Virus record (IMG/VR): IMGVR_UViG_3300025889_000482
Coordinates: 1 to 33,698 of that record
Direction: 5' to 3' (one strand)
DNA length: 33,698 nucleotides
Source of the DNA: a virus
Shown here: positions 8,078 to 26,235 of the stretch, piece by piece
Position numbering within the stretch: position 1 is the first letter of the stretch
Layout of the letters: every line of letters starts with the position of its first letter
Made by a program: the position numbers and the translations under genes
The notes under the pieces: model-generated
Seen by the model: only the letters and a program-made list of their open reading frames with translations
Told to the model about the DNA's origin: nothing
The model's database searches: none

Positions 8078-10536
8078 TGTGGAGTTCCTCTGTTGTTACG
8101 TTGTTTAAGCAGCTCGCGCTCCATAGCCGACTGAATACGAGCTTGCGTCTGACGCTCCTGAGAAGACAACCGCTGTTGGAACTGATTCGCCCGCATCTGC
8201 TGGTTCTGTGCATCCAACTGCAACTTCGCCTGATCGATCTGATCGTCCGCCTGCGCCTCTTGTGCGCGTTGCTGCAATTCCGCTTCCTTGAGCTGTACCA
8301 AAGGATCGGGGGCCCCGGCTCCTGACAACTCGGCAGACATCTGCTTGACCTGCTGCAAGCCCTCCGCAACAAACTGAGCCGTAAGCTGCTCCAATTGTAA
8401 CATTTGTTCGTCCGCAGCCATCGGACCGCCTTGTTGCTGCATCATCTGCATCATTTGCTGTTGAGCCTGCTCCTTCGCAGCAATCTGCACATGCTCCATA
8501 ACGTGTTTCTGCAAATTAATCGCCAAAGGCGGCATCTGAGAAACCATCGGTGTCGAACCAAATACCAAGTGTGCCGTAATGTGCGCCTGATGGTTCTGAC
8601 CCTCAAACGCCGTCAACGGCAACTGATCCAACGCATTGATGTTTTCCTGCGCCGGATCAAGAGGCTCCGGTATCTCCGCAGGCGTCGCCTTCATCAAACG
8701 ATCAATATCGCTAACACCCAAAGCCTCATACATGTCACGGAATACCTCGTGCATGTTGTGTATCTCAGGGGCTTGGGCCGCGAGCTGTAATTTGGTCTGC
8801 GCGAGCATAATACGCTGCGACTGACTAAATACATTCGGATTGCTAACCGGTATTACATCCACACGATCATCAAAATCCTGCGCCATAATCGTCTGATCGC
8901 CACCCGCAATCGAATACGGATACTCCTGCGGCAAACTCTCCGACATCACACGAGCTAGTATCTTAAACTCCTGACGCATCGCATAGTGCAATCTCTTATG
9001 CACTGCGCTCATGACCCGCGAGCCTTGTTCCATCATCGCAATGGTCGTGCCAACAGGTGCCTGTTGATTGCCGTCACCAACCTTCAAATCAGTGATCGTC
9101 GCAAATCTCTGCCCAGCCTGAACCACAAAACCCAACAAATTAAACAGTGTCTGGTCCGGACCCTTAAATGGCAGCGGCATTAGGCTGTCACGAATAGCCC
9201 CTCCGGGTGCGTCCACGTCTCTGAACTCACCGGGCTGCAACGGATCATCGTCATCCCTGATCCGTAGTCCACGGGCCTTGAAACCCGCTGGGAGATTGGA
9301 CAACGTACCAGCATCGATCAACTGTCGCAGTGCCGCCGTGGCAGTTCGTGACAAACCGCCAATGGTATGGATAAGACCCAAGCCGTAAAAGCCAAAACCG
9401 GGCAAGAATTTAAAGTGCGTAAAGTACGCAATCTTCTTCTTTAACTCGTCCTCTTCGCGGTAATTCCGACGAATAGACAAAATCTGACCATTATCCAGCG
9501 ACATTGTGACAATGTAAGGGACCCGAATACCTGTTGGTTCGCCCTCATCGTCAAGCTCTTCATACCCCTCAAGGTCCAAATCAACGTGGCACTCAAGGAT
9601 TGTACAGTCATAATCAATCTGAGAAGGCTCAATACCGTCAATCCGGTCAATAGCATCCTCAACTTCATTCAATTCCCGCTGCGCAGGAATAACTTCAACG
9701 TCCAAATAAACGCCCGCCAACTGACGCTTGCGCAAATCATTCAACGGCATACGCACAACTTGCGTAATATTAGGACATGTTTCGAGGTCCGCGGTTTCAT
9801 ATGGAACAACCAAGTTCTCCGCAGGGACAAACTTGGATACCGCACGACCTAGCGTCTCGTCATAATAAGTCTTCTTAAACGTCGAACCAGCAAGCGGCAG
9901 ATAGAACAACATTTGGTCCATATCTGGCGTGTATTCCTCCATCACATTCGTGATGTAGTAGTTCATAAACGTTCTTACGCGCTGCGACTGAGCAACCTTG
10001 GCGCTCGTCTCGTCGCCCATAACAACAGTACGGACAGGACCCGCAGGAGGTAACAATTCATTAAACGCCTGCGCCTGAAACTGCGTCGCAGCTTCCGCCA
10101 ATAACGGATGAGTCACACCAGAGGCTCCACGGAATGGCTGCGTCCGCTCCTCATAGTTAAAGCCCAAAAGCTCCAAACCATCCTTATACGCGTCTTCCCA
10201 ATCCTGACGGCTTGCCTTGTTAGCGTCGTACTCGTCCAACAACTCACCAGCAATCCTTGCCAGCTCACGGTCCGGCATCTCTTCCGCCAAGTTAGCATAA
10301 AAATCGTCATTCACGCCGCGCTGATCCTGCGGCTCAAAGTCAATCTCTACCCCACCGTCCTCAGTCGGGTTAATTCCAATCTCACCGACGTTCTCAGCCT
10401 GAATCATCGCCATAACGTCATTCTGTGCCTGCGGCAGCTCAATCTCCAGCTCCGCCCGCAACTCATCTTCGTTGAGCTGAGTAGGAACCGCAGTCTCCAT
10501 CAAACTGCTCTGGTATCCATTACGTGGTTCAGCCAT
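8074..10536 (-). CDS. Portal (head-to-tail connector) protein
   Basis: An 820-residue protein from ATG 10536, which has AAAGG six to seven bases upstream; an upstream TTG is less likely. The long size, the order terminase-portal, and segments such as DWEDAYKDGLELLGFNYE, RGASGVTHPLLAEAATQFQA and AGPVRTVVMGDE identify a large portal of the type found in marine podovirus-like and P22-like genomes. The C-terminal 150 residues are Gln-rich and helical (QQQMMQMMQQQGG, then a long charged coil), as expected for a barrel extension. It forms the dodecameric DNA channel at one capsid vertex. Confidence 0.92.
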   Translation of the reverse strand: MAEPRNGYQSSLMETAVPTQLNEDELRAELEIELPQAQNDVMAMIQAENVGEIGINPTEDGGVEIDFEPQDQRGVNDDFYANLAEEMPDRELARIAGELLDEYDANKASRQDWEDAYKDGLELLGFNYEERTQPFRGASGVTHPLLAEAATQFQAQAFNELLPPAGPVRTVVMGDETSAKVAQSQRVRTFMNYYITNVMEEYTPDMDQMLFYLPLAGSTFKKTYYDETLGRAVSKFVPAENLVVPYETADLETCPNITQVVRMPLNDLRKRQLAGVYLDVEVIPAQRELNEVEDAIDRIDGIEPSQIDYDCTILECHVDLDLEGYEELDDEGEPTGIRVPYIVTMSLDNGQILSIRRNYREEDELKKKIAYFTHFKFLPGFGFYGLGLIHTIGGLSRTATAALRQLIDAGTLSNLPAGFKARGLRIRDDDDPLQPGEFRDVDAPGGAIRDSLMPLPFKGPDQTLFNLLGFVVQAGQRFATITDLKVGDGNQQAPVGTTIAMMEQGSRVMSAVHKRLHYAMRQEFKILARVMSESLPQEYPYSIAGGDQTIMAQDFDDRVDVIPVSNPNVFSQSQRIMLAQTKLQLAAQAPEIHNMHEVFRDMYEALGVSDIDRLMKATPAEIPEPLDPAQENINALDQLPLTAFEGQNHQAHITAHLVFGSTPMVSQMPPLAINLQKHVMEHVQIAAKEQAQQQMMQMMQQQGGPMAADEQMLQLEQLTAQFVAEGLQQVKQMSAELSGAGAPDPLVQLKEAELQQRAQEAQADDQIDQAKLQLDAQNQQMRANQFQQRLSSQERQTQARIQSAMERELLKQRNNRGTPQ

Positions 10537-10553: not shown

Positions 10554-12017
10554 CTAATAATACATCCGCACTCTAGCAGAGTTTTGCTCATCTTCCCAGT
10601 CATCTGTTGGTAACTGCACAAAATTTCCTTGCCTATATCGCATAAGTGCCTGCGTCATGCTGTCAACCAAGTCGTCATGCTCACCATTCGGAAATGCAGC
10701 AACCTCCTCAACCAACTCATCCGCCCAAGTCTCGTCGGGGACCCAAACCATCCCCGCCTCAAACAAGGGCGACACACTGTGAACCCGCGTCACCTTGTCA
10801 TTACCTCGACTCGGCGTGAAATTCACAACCGGTATACCCATGTTCCGCAATTCATGCGTCAAAGGCATACCACTCGCCTTCGCTTCAATTATCACAGTAT
10901 CCGGTTCCCAAAAATTGTAAAGGTCCAAGGCGCACTGCTTCAATTCCGGGAAATCCCATCTTCCCTTCTTACTGTCCAAAAGTATCAAGTTAGGACCCGA
11001 ACCACCTTCATTCGGATAGAATACCCCCCACGTTGTGATAGCCGAGTAGTCGCTCGTCTCCCGCTTGCTAAACGCCGTATCGTAACTCTGGATAACATAC
11101 TCCAACTGAGGGACCGTATCCCGCTCCCAAGTCCGCCACCACTCACGCTTAATGATCGCGTTCTCCTCACCAGTAGGATTTTGCTGATACTGCGCGTTCC
11201 ACTTACTCGGAGGAATAGATGCGCGGACCGCGGTCAAATCCTCAAGGCTCCAAAACTCAGGCCAACACGGAGTCCCATCATCAAAAATTGCCGGTAACTC
11301 AACAACCTCCCACTGATCCGCCAACGGGTCCTTTGCCATCGCCCTCAATAACTGCCCCGTCATGTCCTTCTCAGACCACCTAGTCTGAACCAAAACAATG
11401 CTCCCACCCGGCTGCAAACGCTGACGAGGTCCACCCGTGTACCAATCCCAAGCATCATCAAAACCACTATTGCTCATAGCAGTCTGCTCCGAATGTGGGT
11501 CGTCAATAATCACCAAGTCACCACCACGACCAGCCAAGTTACTCCCAACACCAACAGCGTAATACATACCACCCTTGTTCGTGTCCCATCGACCACTCGC
11601 CTTACTGTCCGCAGCCAGCTTAACCTCCGGGAATATCTCACGATACTCGTCGCTCTCAATCAAATTCTTCGTCTTACGACCAAAATTTACCGCCAGCTCA
11701 GTCGTGTGCGTCGCCTGAATGATCTTCTTGTTCGGCATACGGCCCATGAACCACGCAGGAAACAAATAACTCGCAAACTCACTCTTCGTGTGCCGCGGTG
11801 CCATGTTAATAATAAGTCGTTTTAGGTCGCCTTTTGCGACTCTATCCAACTTTTCAGCAATGATCCGATGATGACGGCCCGCGATGAAGTCAGGCCAAAC
11901 TGTTTTCACGAAAGTTAAAAAATCATCTTGGCACTTCTCGTTCTTCTCAAGCTGCGCCAACCGCAGCTCAAGCTTCAATTTCTTCTCTTCTAAAGCAGGA
12001 TTACTAGCTATATTCAT
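10554..12017 (-). CDS. terL: Terminase large subunit
   Basis: A 487-residue packaging motor. The ATPase half has the deviant Walker A APRHTKS (residues 73-79), Walker B LVIIDD (168-173) followed by PHSE, and the coupling motif QTRW (211-214). The nuclease half has the RNase-H-fold acidic residues in SYDTAF (Asp313), IIEAKASG (Glu378) and HDDLVD (Asp448/449). All key residues are present, so it should be active. Its small-subunit partner lies 5.2 kb away (17244-17882), with an accessory block between. The parS sequence and a TATGCGAT site lie directly upstream. Confidence 0.96.
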   Translation of the reverse strand: MNIASNPALEEKKLKLELRLAQLEKNEKCQDDFLTFVKTVWPDFIAGRHHRIIAEKLDRVAKGDLKRLIINMAPRHTKSEFASYLFPAWFMGRMPNKKIIQATHTTELAVNFGRKTKNLIESDEYREIFPEVKLAADSKASGRWDTNKGGMYYAVGVGSNLAGRGGDLVIIDDPHSEQTAMSNSGFDDAWDWYTGGPRQRLQPGGSIVLVQTRWSEKDMTGQLLRAMAKDPLADQWEVVELPAIFDDGTPCWPEFWSLEDLTAVRASIPPSKWNAQYQQNPTGEENAIIKREWWRTWERDTVPQLEYVIQSYDTAFSKRETSDYSAITTWGVFYPNEGGSGPNLILLDSKKGRWDFPELKQCALDLYNFWEPDTVIIEAKASGMPLTHELRNMGIPVVNFTPSRGNDKVTRVHSVSPLFEAGMVWVPDETWADELVEEVAAFPNGEHDDLVDSMTQALMRYRQGNFVQLPTDDWEDEQNSARVRMYY

Positions 12018-12058
12018 AGGGGTCCCTAGCTAACTTTTCATACGCAGTTTTTCACGAA

Positions 12059-12074
12059 TGTTTCACGTGAAACA
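12059..12074. promoter_or_regulatory. Perfect bacterial parS site
   Basis: The 16-bp palindrome TGTTTCACGTGAAACA is identical to the chromosomal parS consensus bound by host ParB (Spo0J) in a wide range of bacteria. It lies 42 bp upstream of the terL start codon in a non-coding stretch. At uniform base composition one exact match in a window this size is expected about 8 times in a million. No parA or parB gene is present in the window, so host ParB would be the likely binder. Confidence 0.85.
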
Positions 12075-12513
12075 TAGCACGTAATGTATGCGATTTTAAC
12101 CGCAAATATACAACAGTTAAACCTCGTTCAAAAAATCACGTAATTATTTGCGAGAAACATGGCCCTAGCCACCGTGACACGACCGCGGGGGCGGGTGCCG
12201 TGCGGCGCGGATTTTGGCGCGTTTTCTGCGCTTTTTGACCCGATATGCGGGGGACCCTGAACGTAAATAATGACCCGGCGTTTGCGGTGCTGGGAACATC
12301 CGCCGCGGGGATTGATGACCGATCCGCTGCCCGATCCGTTGGCCCTCGGCCCGCTGCCCTCGGCCATTGCCCGCGGTTAATTTTCACGGGCTGGGCTGCC
12401 CGATCCGCTGCCCGATAACTGCCGCCAACTGGCCCACGATCCGCGGCGCGGTAGGTTTCGCCCACGGTGCAAGGGGCGCGGCCCGCCTTATTTAACTGTC
12501 AAACACTGGGCAT
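12075..12513. other. Non-coding, GC-rich intergenic stretch with direct repeats
   Basis: No convincing gene is seen. Bases 12087-12094 are a TATGCGAT motif, 75 bp before terL. From about 12170 to 12490 the sequence is much richer in GC than its surroundings and contains a perfect 17-bp direct repeat (12319-12335 and 12400-12416, CCGATCCGCTGCCCGAT) plus several partial copies of GATCCG and GCCCGAT. Frames on the leftward strand are open for up to 109 codons but use non-ATG starts and read as repeats of RAADR, so they look non-coding. It may serve as a packaging site, replication site or structured RNA. Confidence 0.55.
12319..12416. repeat. 17-bp perfect direct repeat pair
   Basis: CCGATCCGCTGCCCGAT occurs at 12319-12335 and again at 12400-12416, 81 bp apart, within the GC-rich stretch upstream of terL. 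Partial copies lie between and beside them. Confidence 0.85.
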
Positions 12514-12539
12514 AAAAAAGGCCCGCACAATGGCGGGCC
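12514..12539 (-). terminator. Intrinsic terminator, copy 1
   Basis: Leftward: 7-bp stem GGCCCGC/GCGGGCC (12520-12526 with 12533-12539), 6-base loop, then six T. It lies just after the gene at 12563. An identical 26-base copy ends the DUF932 gene at 13666-13691. Confidence 0.9.
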
Positions 12540-15790: not shown

Positions 15791-15923
15791 ATTTACGACG
15801 TCTGCGGATGCGCTGTTTCGGTCGTTTCATCGGTCGGGCGCGGCGTTGTTTCTGTTCAAACTCCTGCACTTTGTCGGGGCCGTGTTTTAGATATGCCCAC
15901 AATTTTGCAAACAATACCATCAT
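15789..15923 (-). CDS. Small highly basic protein
   Basis: A 44-residue reading frame MMVLFAKLWAYLKHGPDK followed by an Arg/Lys-rich half ending in RIRRRRK. Its ATG overlaps the stop of the preceding gene as ATGA, with a GGGGGG run just before. Such an amphipathic start plus arginine tail could bind nucleic acid or membranes, but nothing specific is recognised. It is the last gene of the early run before the bidirectional terminator. Confidence 0.6.
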   Translation of the reverse strand: MMVLFAKLWAYLKHGPDKVQEFEQKQRRARPMKRPKQRIRRRRK

Positions 15924-16897: not shown

Positions 16898-17377
16898 CTA
16901 TGCGATGTTATGCGATCCTATGGGACTAATCAAGTCAAAAATTACATTCCAGTCTGGATCACCCTCACACTCGAATAAAGGCTCAACGTCTAAACCCTCC
17001 AGCTTCAAATCCATTGCTGCGTTTGCAGGATACAAAAATACTTTTTGCGGCATCTTTTTGGTTTTCTTTTTCAGGACCAAAACCCACGCACTGGCATGAG
17101 CATGGTTAGAAAGCCACGCGACTTGGTGCGGACGCAGATCGACTGCACGACCACCTGTCGCTTTCAATTCTACAAAGTGAAAGTCGCCTTCTTCGTCACA
17201 CAACAAAACATCAGGAACCCCGGGCATCGCCCACGTTTCAAGCCTAGTTGGGATGATCTTCCTCGTAGTCTTCTCCAGCCCCGTCTTCATCATTCGCCAG
17301 AAGTCTGACTCTCGCTTTGTCGCGGTTGCTGGAATTTGTCTGTCCTTCGGGAGTAACGTCGATAGTGATCGGGGCAT
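16898..17377 (-). CDS. PD-(D/E)XK nuclease, VRR-NUC/resolvase-like
   Basis: Up to 159 residues. ESDFWRMMKTGL and the catalytic core GVPDVLLCDEEGDFHFVELKAT (PD about residue 54, ExK about 69-71) match small phage nucleases of the VRR-NUC or Holliday-junction resolvase type, with a following HQVAWLSNHA helix. Likely tasks are resolving branched replication intermediates before packaging or processing DNA. The only ATG that keeps ESDFW is 17377, which overlaps the terminase small subunit by 134 bases; a start at 17293 would lose part of the core helix. Expression is probably coupled to that gene. Confidence 0.8.
   Translation of the reverse strand: MPRSLSTLLPKDRQIPATATKRESDFWRMMKTGLEKTTRKIIPTRLETWAMPGVPDVLLCDEEGDFHFVELKATGGRAVDLRPHQVAWLSNHAHASAWVLVLKKKTKKMPQKVFLYPANAAMDLKLEGLDVEPLFECEGDPDWNVIFDLISPIGSHNIA
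16899..16933 (-). promoter_or_regulatory. Promoter with tandem TATGCGAT operator
   Basis: Two perfect TATGCGAT copies 10 bp apart (16899-16906 and 16909-16916). On the leftward strand -35 TTGATT (16933-16928), 17-bp spacer and -10 TAACAT (16910-16905) overlap the operator. The promoter lies in the last codons of the nuclease gene. Confidence 0.65.
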
Positions 17378-17882
17378 AGCTCTGCTTTATTTCCTCAAGC
17401 GCCTTTAGCACGTCATCTTTGCTCATGCTGTCGATACTGCCGTGGCGGATTTCTGACTTACTTACATAGATGTCGCCCTGCGCTTGCCCCCGTCGATACT
17501 CAGCTTGGACGGCTGCTGAGTATGCGCCGTTTTGCAATGCCATATCACGGATGGTTTGCAAATCTCTTAAATGGCGTTGGTACGTCACGCCAAACTTTTC
17601 ATCCAGCTCTGCTCTGTACGCTTGGATTGCGTTCACAACATGCGGACTAATGTGTGGGTTGGTTAGCTCATACGCCCGAGTGTGAGCAGATGAGGCAGGA
17701 TAACCAGCGTTGATTGCTGCTTCCCGCATTGTAATCTGTCCGTCCTTAGAAACCAATTCTTTTACAAACAGTTCCTGCTTTCGGGTCAGTGGTTGTGCCT
17801 TCGTTGCTCTGGGTCGCCCTGCTTTTCTTTTCTGTACAACAGGTGTGGATTTGGCGACATCCCCTTGTTTTCTTCGAGCCAC
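17244..17882 (-). CDS. terS: Terminase small subunit
   Basis: A 212-residue protein starting at GTG 17882 behind GGAG. An N-terminal basic AT-hook-like stretch (KRKAGRPRATK) precedes a helix-turn-helix domain (LTRKQELFVKELVSKDGQIT, then REAAINAGYPASSAHTRAYE) matching the Terminase_2 group. A central helical oligomerisation part and a C-terminal acidic tail (LANDEDGAGEDYEEDHPN) follow. It recognises the phage DNA and hands it to the large subunit. Separation from terL by about 5 kb is unusual. The preceding 344-bp AT-rich intergenic stretch could contain its binding site. Confidence 0.88.
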   Translation of the reverse strand: MARRKQGDVAKSTPVVQKRKAGRPRATKAQPLTRKQELFVKELVSKDGQITMREAAINAGYPASSAHTRAYELTNPHISPHVVNAIQAYRAELDEKFGVTYQRHLRDLQTIRDMALQNGAYSAAVQAEYRRGQAQGDIYVSKSEIRHGSIDSMSKDDVLKALEEIKQSYAPITIDVTPEGQTNSSNRDKARVRLLANDEDGAGEDYEEDHPN

Positions 17883-19439: not shown

Positions 19440-19786
19440 TTGTTTTCCTCATATTGTTCCGCGAGGCTTTCGCCTATGTTTTTTGCGGTTTCTTCATCGA
19501 CGAAGGTTGCTCTGGTCATTGGCTTGGTGCGGAAGAACCCTTTGTACTGCGGGTTGTAGTGCATGAATAGCCGAGCGTAGAGCGCGATGAAGTCGTTAGA
19601 AATTTTGTAGTCGTCTCCGGTGGTGACGATCATTGTCTCCCACCGGATGCGATTTACGATTAGCCAAGCTGACAAGCGTGTATGTCCACGTTCGATAGCT
19701 TGGAAGGTGAAGCGTTCGAAGAGTTTGTAGAACTCTGGATTTTGTTTATGCCACGCCCACCATCTTTCTTTCAGGTCTTGCTTCAT
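19436..19786 (-). CDS. Conserved phage protein, WWAWHKQNPEFY type
   Basis: A 116-residue protein with the features KERWWAWHKQNPEFYKLFER, AWLIVNRIRWETMIVTTGDD and KISNDFIALYARLFM, a combination I know from many unrelated phages and prophages without an assigned function. Aromatic residues in the first helix and the IVNRIRW-DFIA pattern suggest a compact alpha domain. It sits between two regulators with ATGA overlaps on both sides. Confidence 0.82.
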   Translation of the reverse strand: MKQDLKERWWAWHKQNPEFYKLFERFTFQAIERGHTRLSAWLIVNRIRWETMIVTTGDDYKISNDFIALYARLFMHYNPQYKGFFRTKPMTRATFVDEETAKNIGESLAEQYEENK

Positions 19787-20259
19787 GTGAATAGCATGAC
19801 AGCTATACCAGCTAACAAGGCTCCTACTATGGCTTGAGCTATATAGCGTTTTGTTTTGGAAGGCTCCTCGACAGGCTCGAAATCATAAAGGTCGTTAGCA
19901 CCTTCGTTATAACGTGCGGCATCATCTGGCTGCAAAGCTTCTTTGCCAAACAAGGCATTGAGCCCCGGTTCGAGTTCCGTGGCGAGTTCTTTTGCGGTAA
20001 CGGGCGCTTGTTTTAGCTTCTTGGTGCTTTCCTTCAAATCCTTGACGGGCTGCTTGAGCCATTCGGGGTCGTTGCCTTTGAGGAGCCAACCCATGACTTC
20101 GCCACGTTCCCAACGGTTAACCTTGTTTGGTCCCTGCTTGTTGGTCGATTTGACTTTCTTGGGTTTTGGAAAGGTGCCGTTCTTTACGCGACGGTAAACT
20201 GTCGGTTTAGATATTTTAGCTATTTTGCATACTTCGTTGATGTCGATTAAATCTTTCAT
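19783..20259 (-). CDS. AlpA-like HTH regulator with C-terminal membrane anchor
   Basis: ATG 20259 lies six bases after GGAG (158 residues); an ATG at 20271 contains that ribosome site and is rejected. Residues 1-60 are an AlpA/excisionase-type winged HTH: DINEVCKIAKISKPTVYRRV, KNGTFPKPKKV and NRWERGEVMGWL. Residues 89-107 carry AKELATELEPGLNALFGKE, nearly identical to the major capsid N-terminus. The last 16-18 residues (YIAQAIVGALLAGIAVML) form a membrane helix. A membrane-tethered DNA-binding protein is implied. It has a TTGACA promoter with a tandem TATGCGA operator. Confidence 0.83.
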   Translation of the reverse strand: MKDLIDINEVCKIAKISKPTVYRRVKNGTFPKPKKVKSTNKQGPNKVNRWERGEVMGWLLKGNDPEWLKQPVKDLKESTKKLKQAPVTAKELATELEPGLNALFGKEALQPDDAARYNEGANDLYDFEPVEEPSKTKRYIAQAIVGALLAGIAVMLFT

Positions 20260-20288
20260 GTGTATCTCCATAGTTGTAACACTATGAG

Positions 20289-24312: not shown

Positions 24313-25826
24313 AGGTCATAGCTCCTTGAGACATCTTCAGCATCGACGATAAACAGGTTTTGCTTGGTCCGTGTGACGCCGACATAAAACACACGGTGCA
24401 TATCATCTGGGTTAATCCGCATTTCTTCGTCTGCGGCTGGACTGAGGTCCGTGAACAACACAACGTTGTCCGCTTCACCGCCCTTTGACCCGTGGATCGT
24501 GGACGCCGTGATGCGAGGGATGCCATTGAACTTTTCGCCACGGCGCAACAAGGCTGTTATGTAGGCCCGATCTGTTTCAGGTAGCTTGTCCATGGCTTCG
24601 GACCAGATCATTGAGTTATCGATTAGCAAACCGTAGTTGGCGCGTAACTCGTCCAGTTTTATTAGATCGTCATCATCCAGATTAGGCAGCTTTTTGAAGC
24701 CTCGTTTGACGCGATCACCTACCGACATGAAGCTGTAAATCTTACGAGCGGTCGCACCGGAAACTTCGTTTCCTTTACGCAACTGCTCCCAACCATTTAC
24801 GGCATCAGAAATTTTTTCACTGATGCTACGATGTCCGCGGTACGTGAACAGATAACCGTTTGATTTCAAGTCGTTAGCTACTGGCGTTAGCTGGTATCCT
24901 GCCTGCGACAAAATAAGCCAAGACCCTTGCGTCATGTCCAAAGAGTTAATAGTGTTGATCCGCGTCACGTTGCCCGGTTCCTCACGGGGTTCGTATTTTT
25001 TCGGAAACCTTCGGGCAATGCGACGCACGACACCCTCTGCAATTTTATGTACACGGCTTGGCACCCTGTAAGATTGGGACAGGATTTCTGATCCGCCGGG
25101 TAGATTGATGAACTGGTCCACGTCTGCGCCAGCCCAACGGTAGATGGCTTGGTCATCGTCGCCTGCGGCATACATGCGGTTGGAGTTGGTATCCAGTATG
25201 TGAGCAATGTCCCACTGCAAGGGGCTTAAATCCTGCGCTTCGTCAAGAAAGCAAAGGTCAAACTCAGGACAGAATTTGCCAGACTGATCGACAAAGGCTT
25301 GTAGCATGTCGGTGAAGTCGTAGAGGTTGAGCTTGTTCTTGTAATCCCGCAGGCAGGTATCGACGTAGTTAACTGTGTTCCAGTCTGGTTCGATATTGCT
25401 ACGATTGTATTGGTCCCGCAGCGACACCTTTCGGAGCCGCGCGAGGTTAATAAGCCCAAGGATTGGATCGTTAGATGATACCATTGTTGGGATGTCATCG
25501 TCAAAGTTTCCAGCCTTTGCGCCACCAAGCGATACACCGATGGCCTGACCCAGCTCTTTGTAGTTTTGCTCCTGCATAACCTGCTCTGGACGAATGTCCG
25601 TCATGGTCAGCGCCAGCGAATGCAGGGTGCGGAAGTAAATCAGGTCTTTCTTTGGGTCCAGACCAAACCTTGCTGCGGCGCGTTCCTTGGCTTCGTTAGC
25701 GGCTTTGCGAGTAAAGGCTAGGAAAGCAATCCTATGAGGATGCGTCCCCTTCTCCAGTGCATCGTCTACCATGTTTAGCAGGGTTGTAGTTTTGCCCGTG
25801 CCCGGCGGTCCAAAGATTCGAAACAT
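24309..25826 (-). CDS. UvrD/Rep-like superfamily 1 helicase
   Basis: A 505-residue SF1 helicase: Walker A GPPGTGKTT (residues 6-14), motif Ia AFTRKAANEA, Walker B DEAQD (195-199), motif III GDDDQAIYRWAGA (222-234), motif IV SYRVPSRV, motif V STIHGSKGGEADNVVLF and motif VI FYVGVTRTKQNL. All catalytic motifs are present. It is shorter than E. coli UvrD, with a small 2B region. It unwinds DNA in replication or recombination. GGAGG before ATG 25826 fixes the start, so its first 95 bases overlap the end of the upstream gene. Confidence 0.94.
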   Translation of the reverse strand: MFRIFGPPGTGKTTTLLNMVDDALEKGTHPHRIAFLAFTRKAANEAKERAAARFGLDPKKDLIYFRTLHSLALTMTDIRPEQVMQEQNYKELGQAIGVSLGGAKAGNFDDDIPTMVSSNDPILGLINLARLRKVSLRDQYNRSNIEPDWNTVNYVDTCLRDYKNKLNLYDFTDMLQAFVDQSGKFCPEFDLCFLDEAQDLSPLQWDIAHILDTNSNRMYAAGDDDQAIYRWAGADVDQFINLPGGSEILSQSYRVPSRVHKIAEGVVRRIARRFPKKYEPREEPGNVTRINTINSLDMTQGSWLILSQAGYQLTPVANDLKSNGYLFTYRGHRSISEKISDAVNGWEQLRKGNEVSGATARKIYSFMSVGDRVKRGFKKLPNLDDDDLIKLDELRANYGLLIDNSMIWSEAMDKLPETDRAYITALLRRGEKFNGIPRITASTIHGSKGGEADNVVLFTDLSPAADEEMRINPDDMHRVFYVGVTRTKQNLFIVDAEDVSRSYDL

Positions 25827-26235
25827 GTGGGTCTACCTCCTCAATTGCTGCAATCAGCTCTTTCAAGCTGCGCCGACCAAAATTTGGTTCTTTCATTACT
25901 TCTTCAGGCGAAACGGTGTCGATGAACAAAAGCAAGTTCAAATCTGCGACACCCATATTCAACAAGGCGTTTCTAACGCGTATCGAAATATCCAGTGCGC
26001 CAACCGGCATCTTGCCGTTTGTCTTCCTACTGGCTTCCGCCCAGCGTCTGTGCTTCATCAGGTTTTGTGCTTTGAAAACAATCTGACGAACACGCTCTCG
26101 GGAAATGTTATACTTTGCCCCGATGCTATCCAGCGTTCGCTTTTCAACAACGCGCATACGGTAGATAGCCCAATTCCGCTCTCGGTACGGTTCCGTAAAG
26201 TCATAGCGGTTTGTTCGAAATACATTCTCCGTCAA
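25732..26235 (-). CDS. Sigma-region-4 plus RNA polymerase alpha-CTD-like fusion protein
   Basis: TTG start at 26235 overlapping the primase stop, with AGGGGAGG seven bases upstream (167 residues). Residues 31-60 (EKRTLDSIGAKYNISRERVR QIVFKAQ) match sigma70 region 4.2. Residues 81-133 (LDISIRVRNALLNMGVADLN, later EPNFGRRSLKELIAAIEE) match the RNA polymerase alpha C-terminal domain, including the equivalents of the DNA-contact residues Arg265 and Asn268 (Arg86, Asn89) and Gly296, Lys298, Ser299 (Gly120, Arg122, Ser123). It may redirect host polymerase. The last 30 residues overlap the UvrD-like gene and look unstructured. Confidence 0.82.
   Translation of the reverse strand: MTENVFRTNRYDFTEPYRERNWAIYRMRVVEKRTLDSIGAKYNISRERVRQIVFKAQNLMKHRRWAEASRKTNGKMPVGALDISIRVRNALLNMGVADLNLLLFIDTVSPEEVMKEPNFGRRSLKELIAAIEEVDPHVSNLWTAGHGQNYNPAKHGRRCTGEGDASS

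Follow-up and report, generated by a model that had tools for sequence, protein, structure and literature searches.

Orphan chromosomal-type parS sites beside the terminase genes of uncultivated aquatic phages

We analysed a linear IMG/VR fragment of 33.7 kb (33,698 bp; the window) from a marine-type tailed phage. It encodes the large and small terminase subunits (TerL and TerS), a portal, a capsid protein, a family A DNA polymerase, a primase, UvrD-type and SNF2-type helicases, and GroES, together with Cro/CI-type and excisionase-like HTH proteins. A sigma70 region 4 domain and an RNA polymerase alpha C-terminal domain are combined in a small protein encoded at 25732-26235. Since a megablast of the window against isolated phages returned zero matches, relatives were gathered by TerL search; the closest isolate TerL is that of Pelagibacter phage HTVC027P (63%). 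MAGs with a related TerL pointed to inconsistent hosts (Verrucomicrobia, Rhodobacteraceae, Maricaulis, and others) and were left out of host assignment. The Rhodobacteraceae and Maricaulis MAGs co-binned with related phages contain paired perfect TGTTTCACGTGAAACA sites ~2 kb apart.

Adjoining the start of terL is an exact copy of the chromosomal-type parS site TGTTTCACGTGAAACA, identified by direct reading (Table 1). It is the only match within ≤3 mismatches in the window and the only one within ≤2 mismatches in the whole record, and an exact 16-mer is expected by chance 7.8e-6 times in 33,698 bp. By its 16-bp sequence (TGTTTCACGTGAAACA or tolerated variants) the site belongs to the chromosomal-type parS class, and it sits inside an 18-bp perfect palindrome, ATGTTTCACGTGAAACAT. 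It overlaps no ORF of ≥50 aa in the window ORF scan. A first-pass annotation made from the sequence had reported a perfect, intergenic parS site with a neighboring TATGCGAT site and a GC-rich repeat region, and all of these were recovered: the neighboring site is present at 12087 to 12094, and the stretch from 12141 to 12500 has 64% GC with short, imperfect repeats. The same annotation placed parS 42 bp before terL; the adjacency to the terL start holds, but the spacing to the minus-strand start codon is 41 bp.

Toward terL, the order is a terminator-like hairpin, the GC-rich noncoding stretch, which holds two conserved motifs, a promoter-like pair, the ATCGCATA motif, parS, and terL. Because the upstream operon ends at the terminator-like hairpin, terL probably has a promoter of its own. 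The parS site is placed just 3' of the promoter-like block, in what is presumed to be a late-operon leader. The two conserved noncoding elements, shared by most relatives whether or not these carry parS, are candidates for a packaging site or origin. GC skew was inspected at parS for signs of a replication origin, and none was seen.

Table 1. Features of the parS-terL region and of terS in the window
Feature	Position	Strand	Basis or remark
Orphan parS TGTTTCACGTGAAACA	12059..12074	.	Exact match; conserved 5' of terL in relatives
18-bp perfect palindrome around parS	12058..12075	.	Direct reading; outer A/T pair partly conserved, IC 0.68 and 0.87 bits (two lineages)
Promoter-like block TTAACT-16-TAAAAT 5' of terL	12093..12120	-	Consensus scan, weak (3 found versus 1.1 expected); kept in relatives with and without parS
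ATCGCATA motif (the TATGCGAT of the first-pass annotation) between promoter and parS	12087..12094	-	Recurrent in the window
terL, terminase large subunit, first gene past parS	10554..12017	-	PHROG 38, E 6e-114
Conserved noncoding element GGCTAGGGCCATGTTTCTCGCAAATAATTACGTG	12137..12170	-	GGCCATGTTT-like core in 53/55 relatives
Conserved noncoding motif GGGTCCCCCGCATATCGGGTCA	12236..12257	-	ATCGGGTCA ≤450 bp upstream in 41/55 relatives
Terminator-like hairpin closing the upstream operon	12520..12539	-	Consensus scan
terS, terminase small subunit	17244..17882	-	PHROG 51, E 1.5e-12; Pfam Terminase_2

A total of 80 related viral loci were fetched via TerL, and the addition of MAG and isolate loci brought the sample of the window's own lineage to 90 informative loci. 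A parS site (≤3 mismatches) lies ≤400 bp upstream of terL in 44 of the 80 relatives and ~1 kb upstream in two more; over the full set, 49 of 90 loci have one within 1.2 kb upstream of terL. The search of related phages proposed at first pass thus found the site in about half of relatives, so it is not absent from all close relatives. Related whole contigs, up to 58 kb in length, each have one or two parS sites confined to the region upstream of terL, while two related contigs of >50 kb are entirely without parS. Considering that roughly half of relatives also lack it near terL, parS is dispensable in some phage-host pairs. The parS-negative loci show no decayed remnant; sites are perfect, near-perfect, or absent, and CACGTG hexamers split into two classes, with 0 to 2 versus ≥4 (mostly ≥6) mismatches to parS. 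Alignment shows parS as a module inserted between conserved blocks; one subgroup has it 3' of the promoter block, another 5' of it. The presence or absence of parS changes at least eight times on a quick TerL tree. The GC content of parS-positive loci was higher than that of parS-negative loci (0.508 versus 0.453; P = 5e-6, with phylogenetically nonindependent loci), which is perhaps a host effect. Contig ends cluster near terL-upstream regions but at differing positions, so no physical genome end can be read from them.

Where the 16-mer departs from TGTTTCACGTGAAACA, it mostly does so along known lines. The commonest variant, TGTTCCACGTGGAACA (14 copies), is changed symmetrically in both arms and is the parS of P. 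aeruginosa and P. putida (PMC7022226). Variants CGTTCCACGTGAAACA and CGTTTCACGTGGAACA are inside, or one symmetric substitution away from, the Caulobacter consensus (PMC7022226), whereas the single-copy variants TGTTTCATGTGAAACA and TGTTTCACGTGAAACT are outside that pattern. In several loci, a TGTTTCACGTGAAACA site is paired with a TGTTCCACGTGGAACA site at a spacing of 23 to 24 bp, and either may come first. These paired loci, all upstream of terL, are L123, L124, L128 to L132, L134, L137, and L141, with the order swapped between sublineages.

A second lineage, whose TerL shares only ~29% identity with the window's TerL, has many members with one to five parS sites in the terS-terL interval. 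All but one of its 112 sites are upstream of the TerL match, the lone exception being 25 bases into the matched frame, and some are up to ~2 kb or more from terL. Across 74 nonredundant sites from this lineage whose flanks are <70% alike, the 16-mer is essentially invariant (one single-base exception), and there is almost no information beyond ±10. The 27 nonredundant sites of the window's own lineage likewise retain the 16-mer while their flanks change. As judged from this pattern in both lineages, parS is under selection. Such conservation refutes chance or sequence artefact as the origin of the site, an explanation that also has the very low chance expectation against it and that we consider negligible. 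It is also highly improbable that the palindrome just resembles parS and in fact serves as a phage regulator's operator or as a piece of the packaging site: its location within a conserved noncoding region adjoining terL would fit such a role, but parS shifts relative to the conserved noncoding elements, its symmetric variants are known parS variants, and the same 16-mer occurs in phages with ~29%-identical TerL and also in inovirus, phi29-like, and siphovirus genomes that are unrelated.

The association extends across IMG/VR, in an uncurated scan with a single scrambled palindrome of the same composition as the control. Each parS variant was present in at least 120 contigs, compared to 11 for the control. 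Among the matches listed, 61 of 120 parS sites were intergenic versus 1 of 11 control sites, as assigned by a crude ORF caller. TerL was by far the commonest gene family 3' of the intergenic parS sites among the matches listed (n = 48), with 11 members of PHROG 38 and one or two genes from other TerL families. Genomes with parS beside the terminase genes also have other noncoding gaps.

No partner protein was recognized. In the window, ParB_N (PF02195) and ParA-type (PF13614) domains were absent at E values up to 1 and the ParB HTH domain at E values up to 0.001, in agreement with the first-pass statement that no parB is visible there. Within the window's lineage, ParB_N was found in 0 of 25 records (21 related contigs and 4 complete isolate genomes), HTH_ParB (PF17762) in none of 19 records, and neither the ParA-type ATPase nor phage integrase (PF00589) in 16 related records, while control genomes matched as expected. 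The second lineage likewise yielded ParB_N in 0 of 20 longer contigs. These searches cover recognizable ParB_N and HTH_ParB, and a ParB-like protein with neither domain is possible. More broadly, ParB_N was present in 4 of 50 parS-bearing viral records and in 1 of 12 isolated parS phages checked (absent from 11).

One suggestion made at first pass was that parS serves the segregation of an extrachromosomal prophage, as in a phage-plasmid. A parS site is a centromere, and the HTH proteins of Cro/CI and excisionase-like type in the window would suit a temperate phage, yet the near-complete relatives, where parA and parB beyond the window were to be looked for, encode neither of them and no integrase; no lysogeny module was recognized in the window and no plasmid replication gene was recognized; and the related isolates are Pelagibacter phages without annotated lysogeny genes. 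We therefore regard this function as very unlikely.

A short-query search of isolated phages recovered parS in several cultured viruses. Two sites are present in Glutamicibacter phage Voltaire (8742 and 8761), two perfect and five near-perfect sites in Arthrobacter phage Emotion, and three, all between genes, in Butyrivibrio virus Arian (3256, 7380, and 24825); none of these three phages has ParB_N, and their multiple sites are mostly in intergenic gaps. Bacillus phages B103 and Chedec 11 have two to three sites, also without ParB_N, and phi29 has four near-perfect sites, TGTTTCACGTGGAACA, at 10445, 15903, 17243, and 18760. Bajarodino virus 6 lacks ParB_N as well, and nearly all of its sites are between genes. 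The presence of perfect parS in several unrelated viruses that make no ParB indicates that the host protein is very probably used on phage DNA.

Three further observations concern individual cultured genomes. The 5.9-kb inovirus bajarodino virus 6 (PQ006135) carries six perfect parS sites, at 635, 662, 1414, 2857, 4096, and 5628. Pseudomonas phage phiPsa374 has a one-mismatch parS, TGTTCCACGTGAAACA, at 2503 to 2518 within its direct terminal repeat (DTR), with similar matches in the DTR of related phages. A one-mismatch site in HTVC027P (15834 to 15849) was rejected as a cultured homologue; it is inside an apparently unannotated nuclease-like reading frame (..SPHQYAFHVKHPNN..) and was for that reason treated as a probable coincidence. 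The HTVC027P transcriptome paper (PMC12753301) does not discuss ParB.

Taken as a whole, the site is likely a selected parS acting in trans with host chromosomal ParB, possibly positioning phage DNA. Since parS is selected and the near-complete genomes checked have no ParB, ParA, or integrase, it most likely loads host ParB, and we hold with high confidence that binding and spreading would both occur, given the sequence identity, the selection, and established ParB biology. Host ParB recruitment, proposed at first pass, is strongly supported at the sequence level by the conservation, the pattern of tolerated substitutions, the lack of a phage ParB, and the recurrence in unrelated phages. On infection, host ParB would bind the 16-bp palindrome and close as a CTP-dependent clamp, and clamps would spread over the adjacent kilobases, comprising terL and the first part of the late operon. 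Spreading ParB would form a partition-type complex on phage DNA that could be used by host ParA and perhaps SMC. The most likely outcome is that the phage genome would be anchored to, or positioned on, the nucleoid of the host during replication and packaging, as is reported for phi29 and Spo0J.

The purpose of loading is less certain than loading itself. Positioning or anchoring of phage DNA has the best precedent, and we put it forward tentatively; alone, it does not explain the constant adjacency to terminase genes, given the other noncoding gaps. That tie would be best explained by control of late genes or packaging. One possible, if somewhat unlikely, form of such control, close to the terL silencing raised at first pass, is that spreading ParB would keep the terL promoter silent or hold it back until the limited pool of host ParB is diluted, by phage replication, over many parS copies, as a copy-number-sensing late switch. 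This would fit the location of parS in the two lineages, next to terL or in the terS-terL interval, its distance of ~20 to 35 bp 3' of the predicted -10 in the window, and its abutment to the ATCGCAT motif in other loci, and one report on P. aeruginosa (PMC5521831) describes repression by excess ParB of promoters beside parS3 and parS4. However, promoter geometry is not constant: one subgroup has parS 5' of the promoter block, and in the second lineage the distance to terL can reach ~2 kb or more. A broader proposal, which we consider speculative and rather unlikely, is that unrelated lytic phages of nonsporulating bacteria repeatedly gained host-ParB loading sites beside terminase genes and that ParB clamps time late transcription or packaging through phage copy number relative to a fixed ParB pool. 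Alternatively, as a form of the interference with host chromosome partition raised at first pass, many phage parS copies might pull ParB (and SMC or ParA) off the host origin and disturb segregation or division to the benefit of the phage. The perfect consensus of the sites, their multiplicity in the second lineage, and the destabilization of the IncC helper plasmid by SGI1 parS mimics (PMC10954446) are in line with titration, but it does not require a terminase-linked position and its benefit to a lytic cycle is not evident, making it quite unlikely.

The closest known system is phi29, a virulent Bacillus phage with several parS sites. Host Spo0J (ParB) reportedly takes part in the entrapment of phi29 DNA in the spore. 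As in phi29, parS here is on the genome of a phage that lacks its own ParB, the window being a fragment with which near-complete relatives agree. In contrast, the phi29 sites are scattered and mostly intragenic and the host is a spore-former, whereas the sites described here are found in noncoding DNA, linked to terL or to the interval between terS and terL, and belong to aquatic phages not known to infect spore-formers. The integrative element SGI1 is also a mobile element without ParB that carries parS copies; its parS-like sites hijack the ParABS of another replicon, the IncC plasmid, with ParB binding and stabilization demonstrated (PMC10954446). SGI1 mimics plasmid parS, however, while these are lytic-type phages whose presumed target is chromosomal ParB. 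Phage-plasmids P1 and N15 share a parS-type centromere on phage DNA but encode their own ParA and ParB with a dedicated parS, none of which was found here. Chromosomal parS (Livny et al. 2007; PMC7022226) has the identical 16 bp and mostly the same tolerated substitutions, differing in that the sites here are on a phage genome, adjoin terL, and lack parAB. Phage parS without ParB is thus already known from phi29, while the link to DNA-packaging genes appears to be new; we found no report in the open-licence literature of phages of non-spore-formers using chromosomal ParB. These results suggest that exploitation of host ParB is a recurrent phage strategy, including in uncultivated aquatic phages, rather than a peculiarity of phi29 and spore-formers, and the tie between a chromosome-segregation site and packaging genes raises the question of what a lytic phage gains from a host centromere.

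Separately, the motif TCGCATA recurs 5' of many genes in the window (5193, 12087, 13063, 13632, 14969/14979, 15736, 16899/16909, 20303, and 21050/21071). Its copies are often paired in tandem at a 10-bp spacing, within or close to sigma70-like promoters, as in TTGACAacaTCGCATAgccTCGCATATGAT before the gene at 19783-20271. The motif resembles an operator or a promoter element belonging to a phage regulon.
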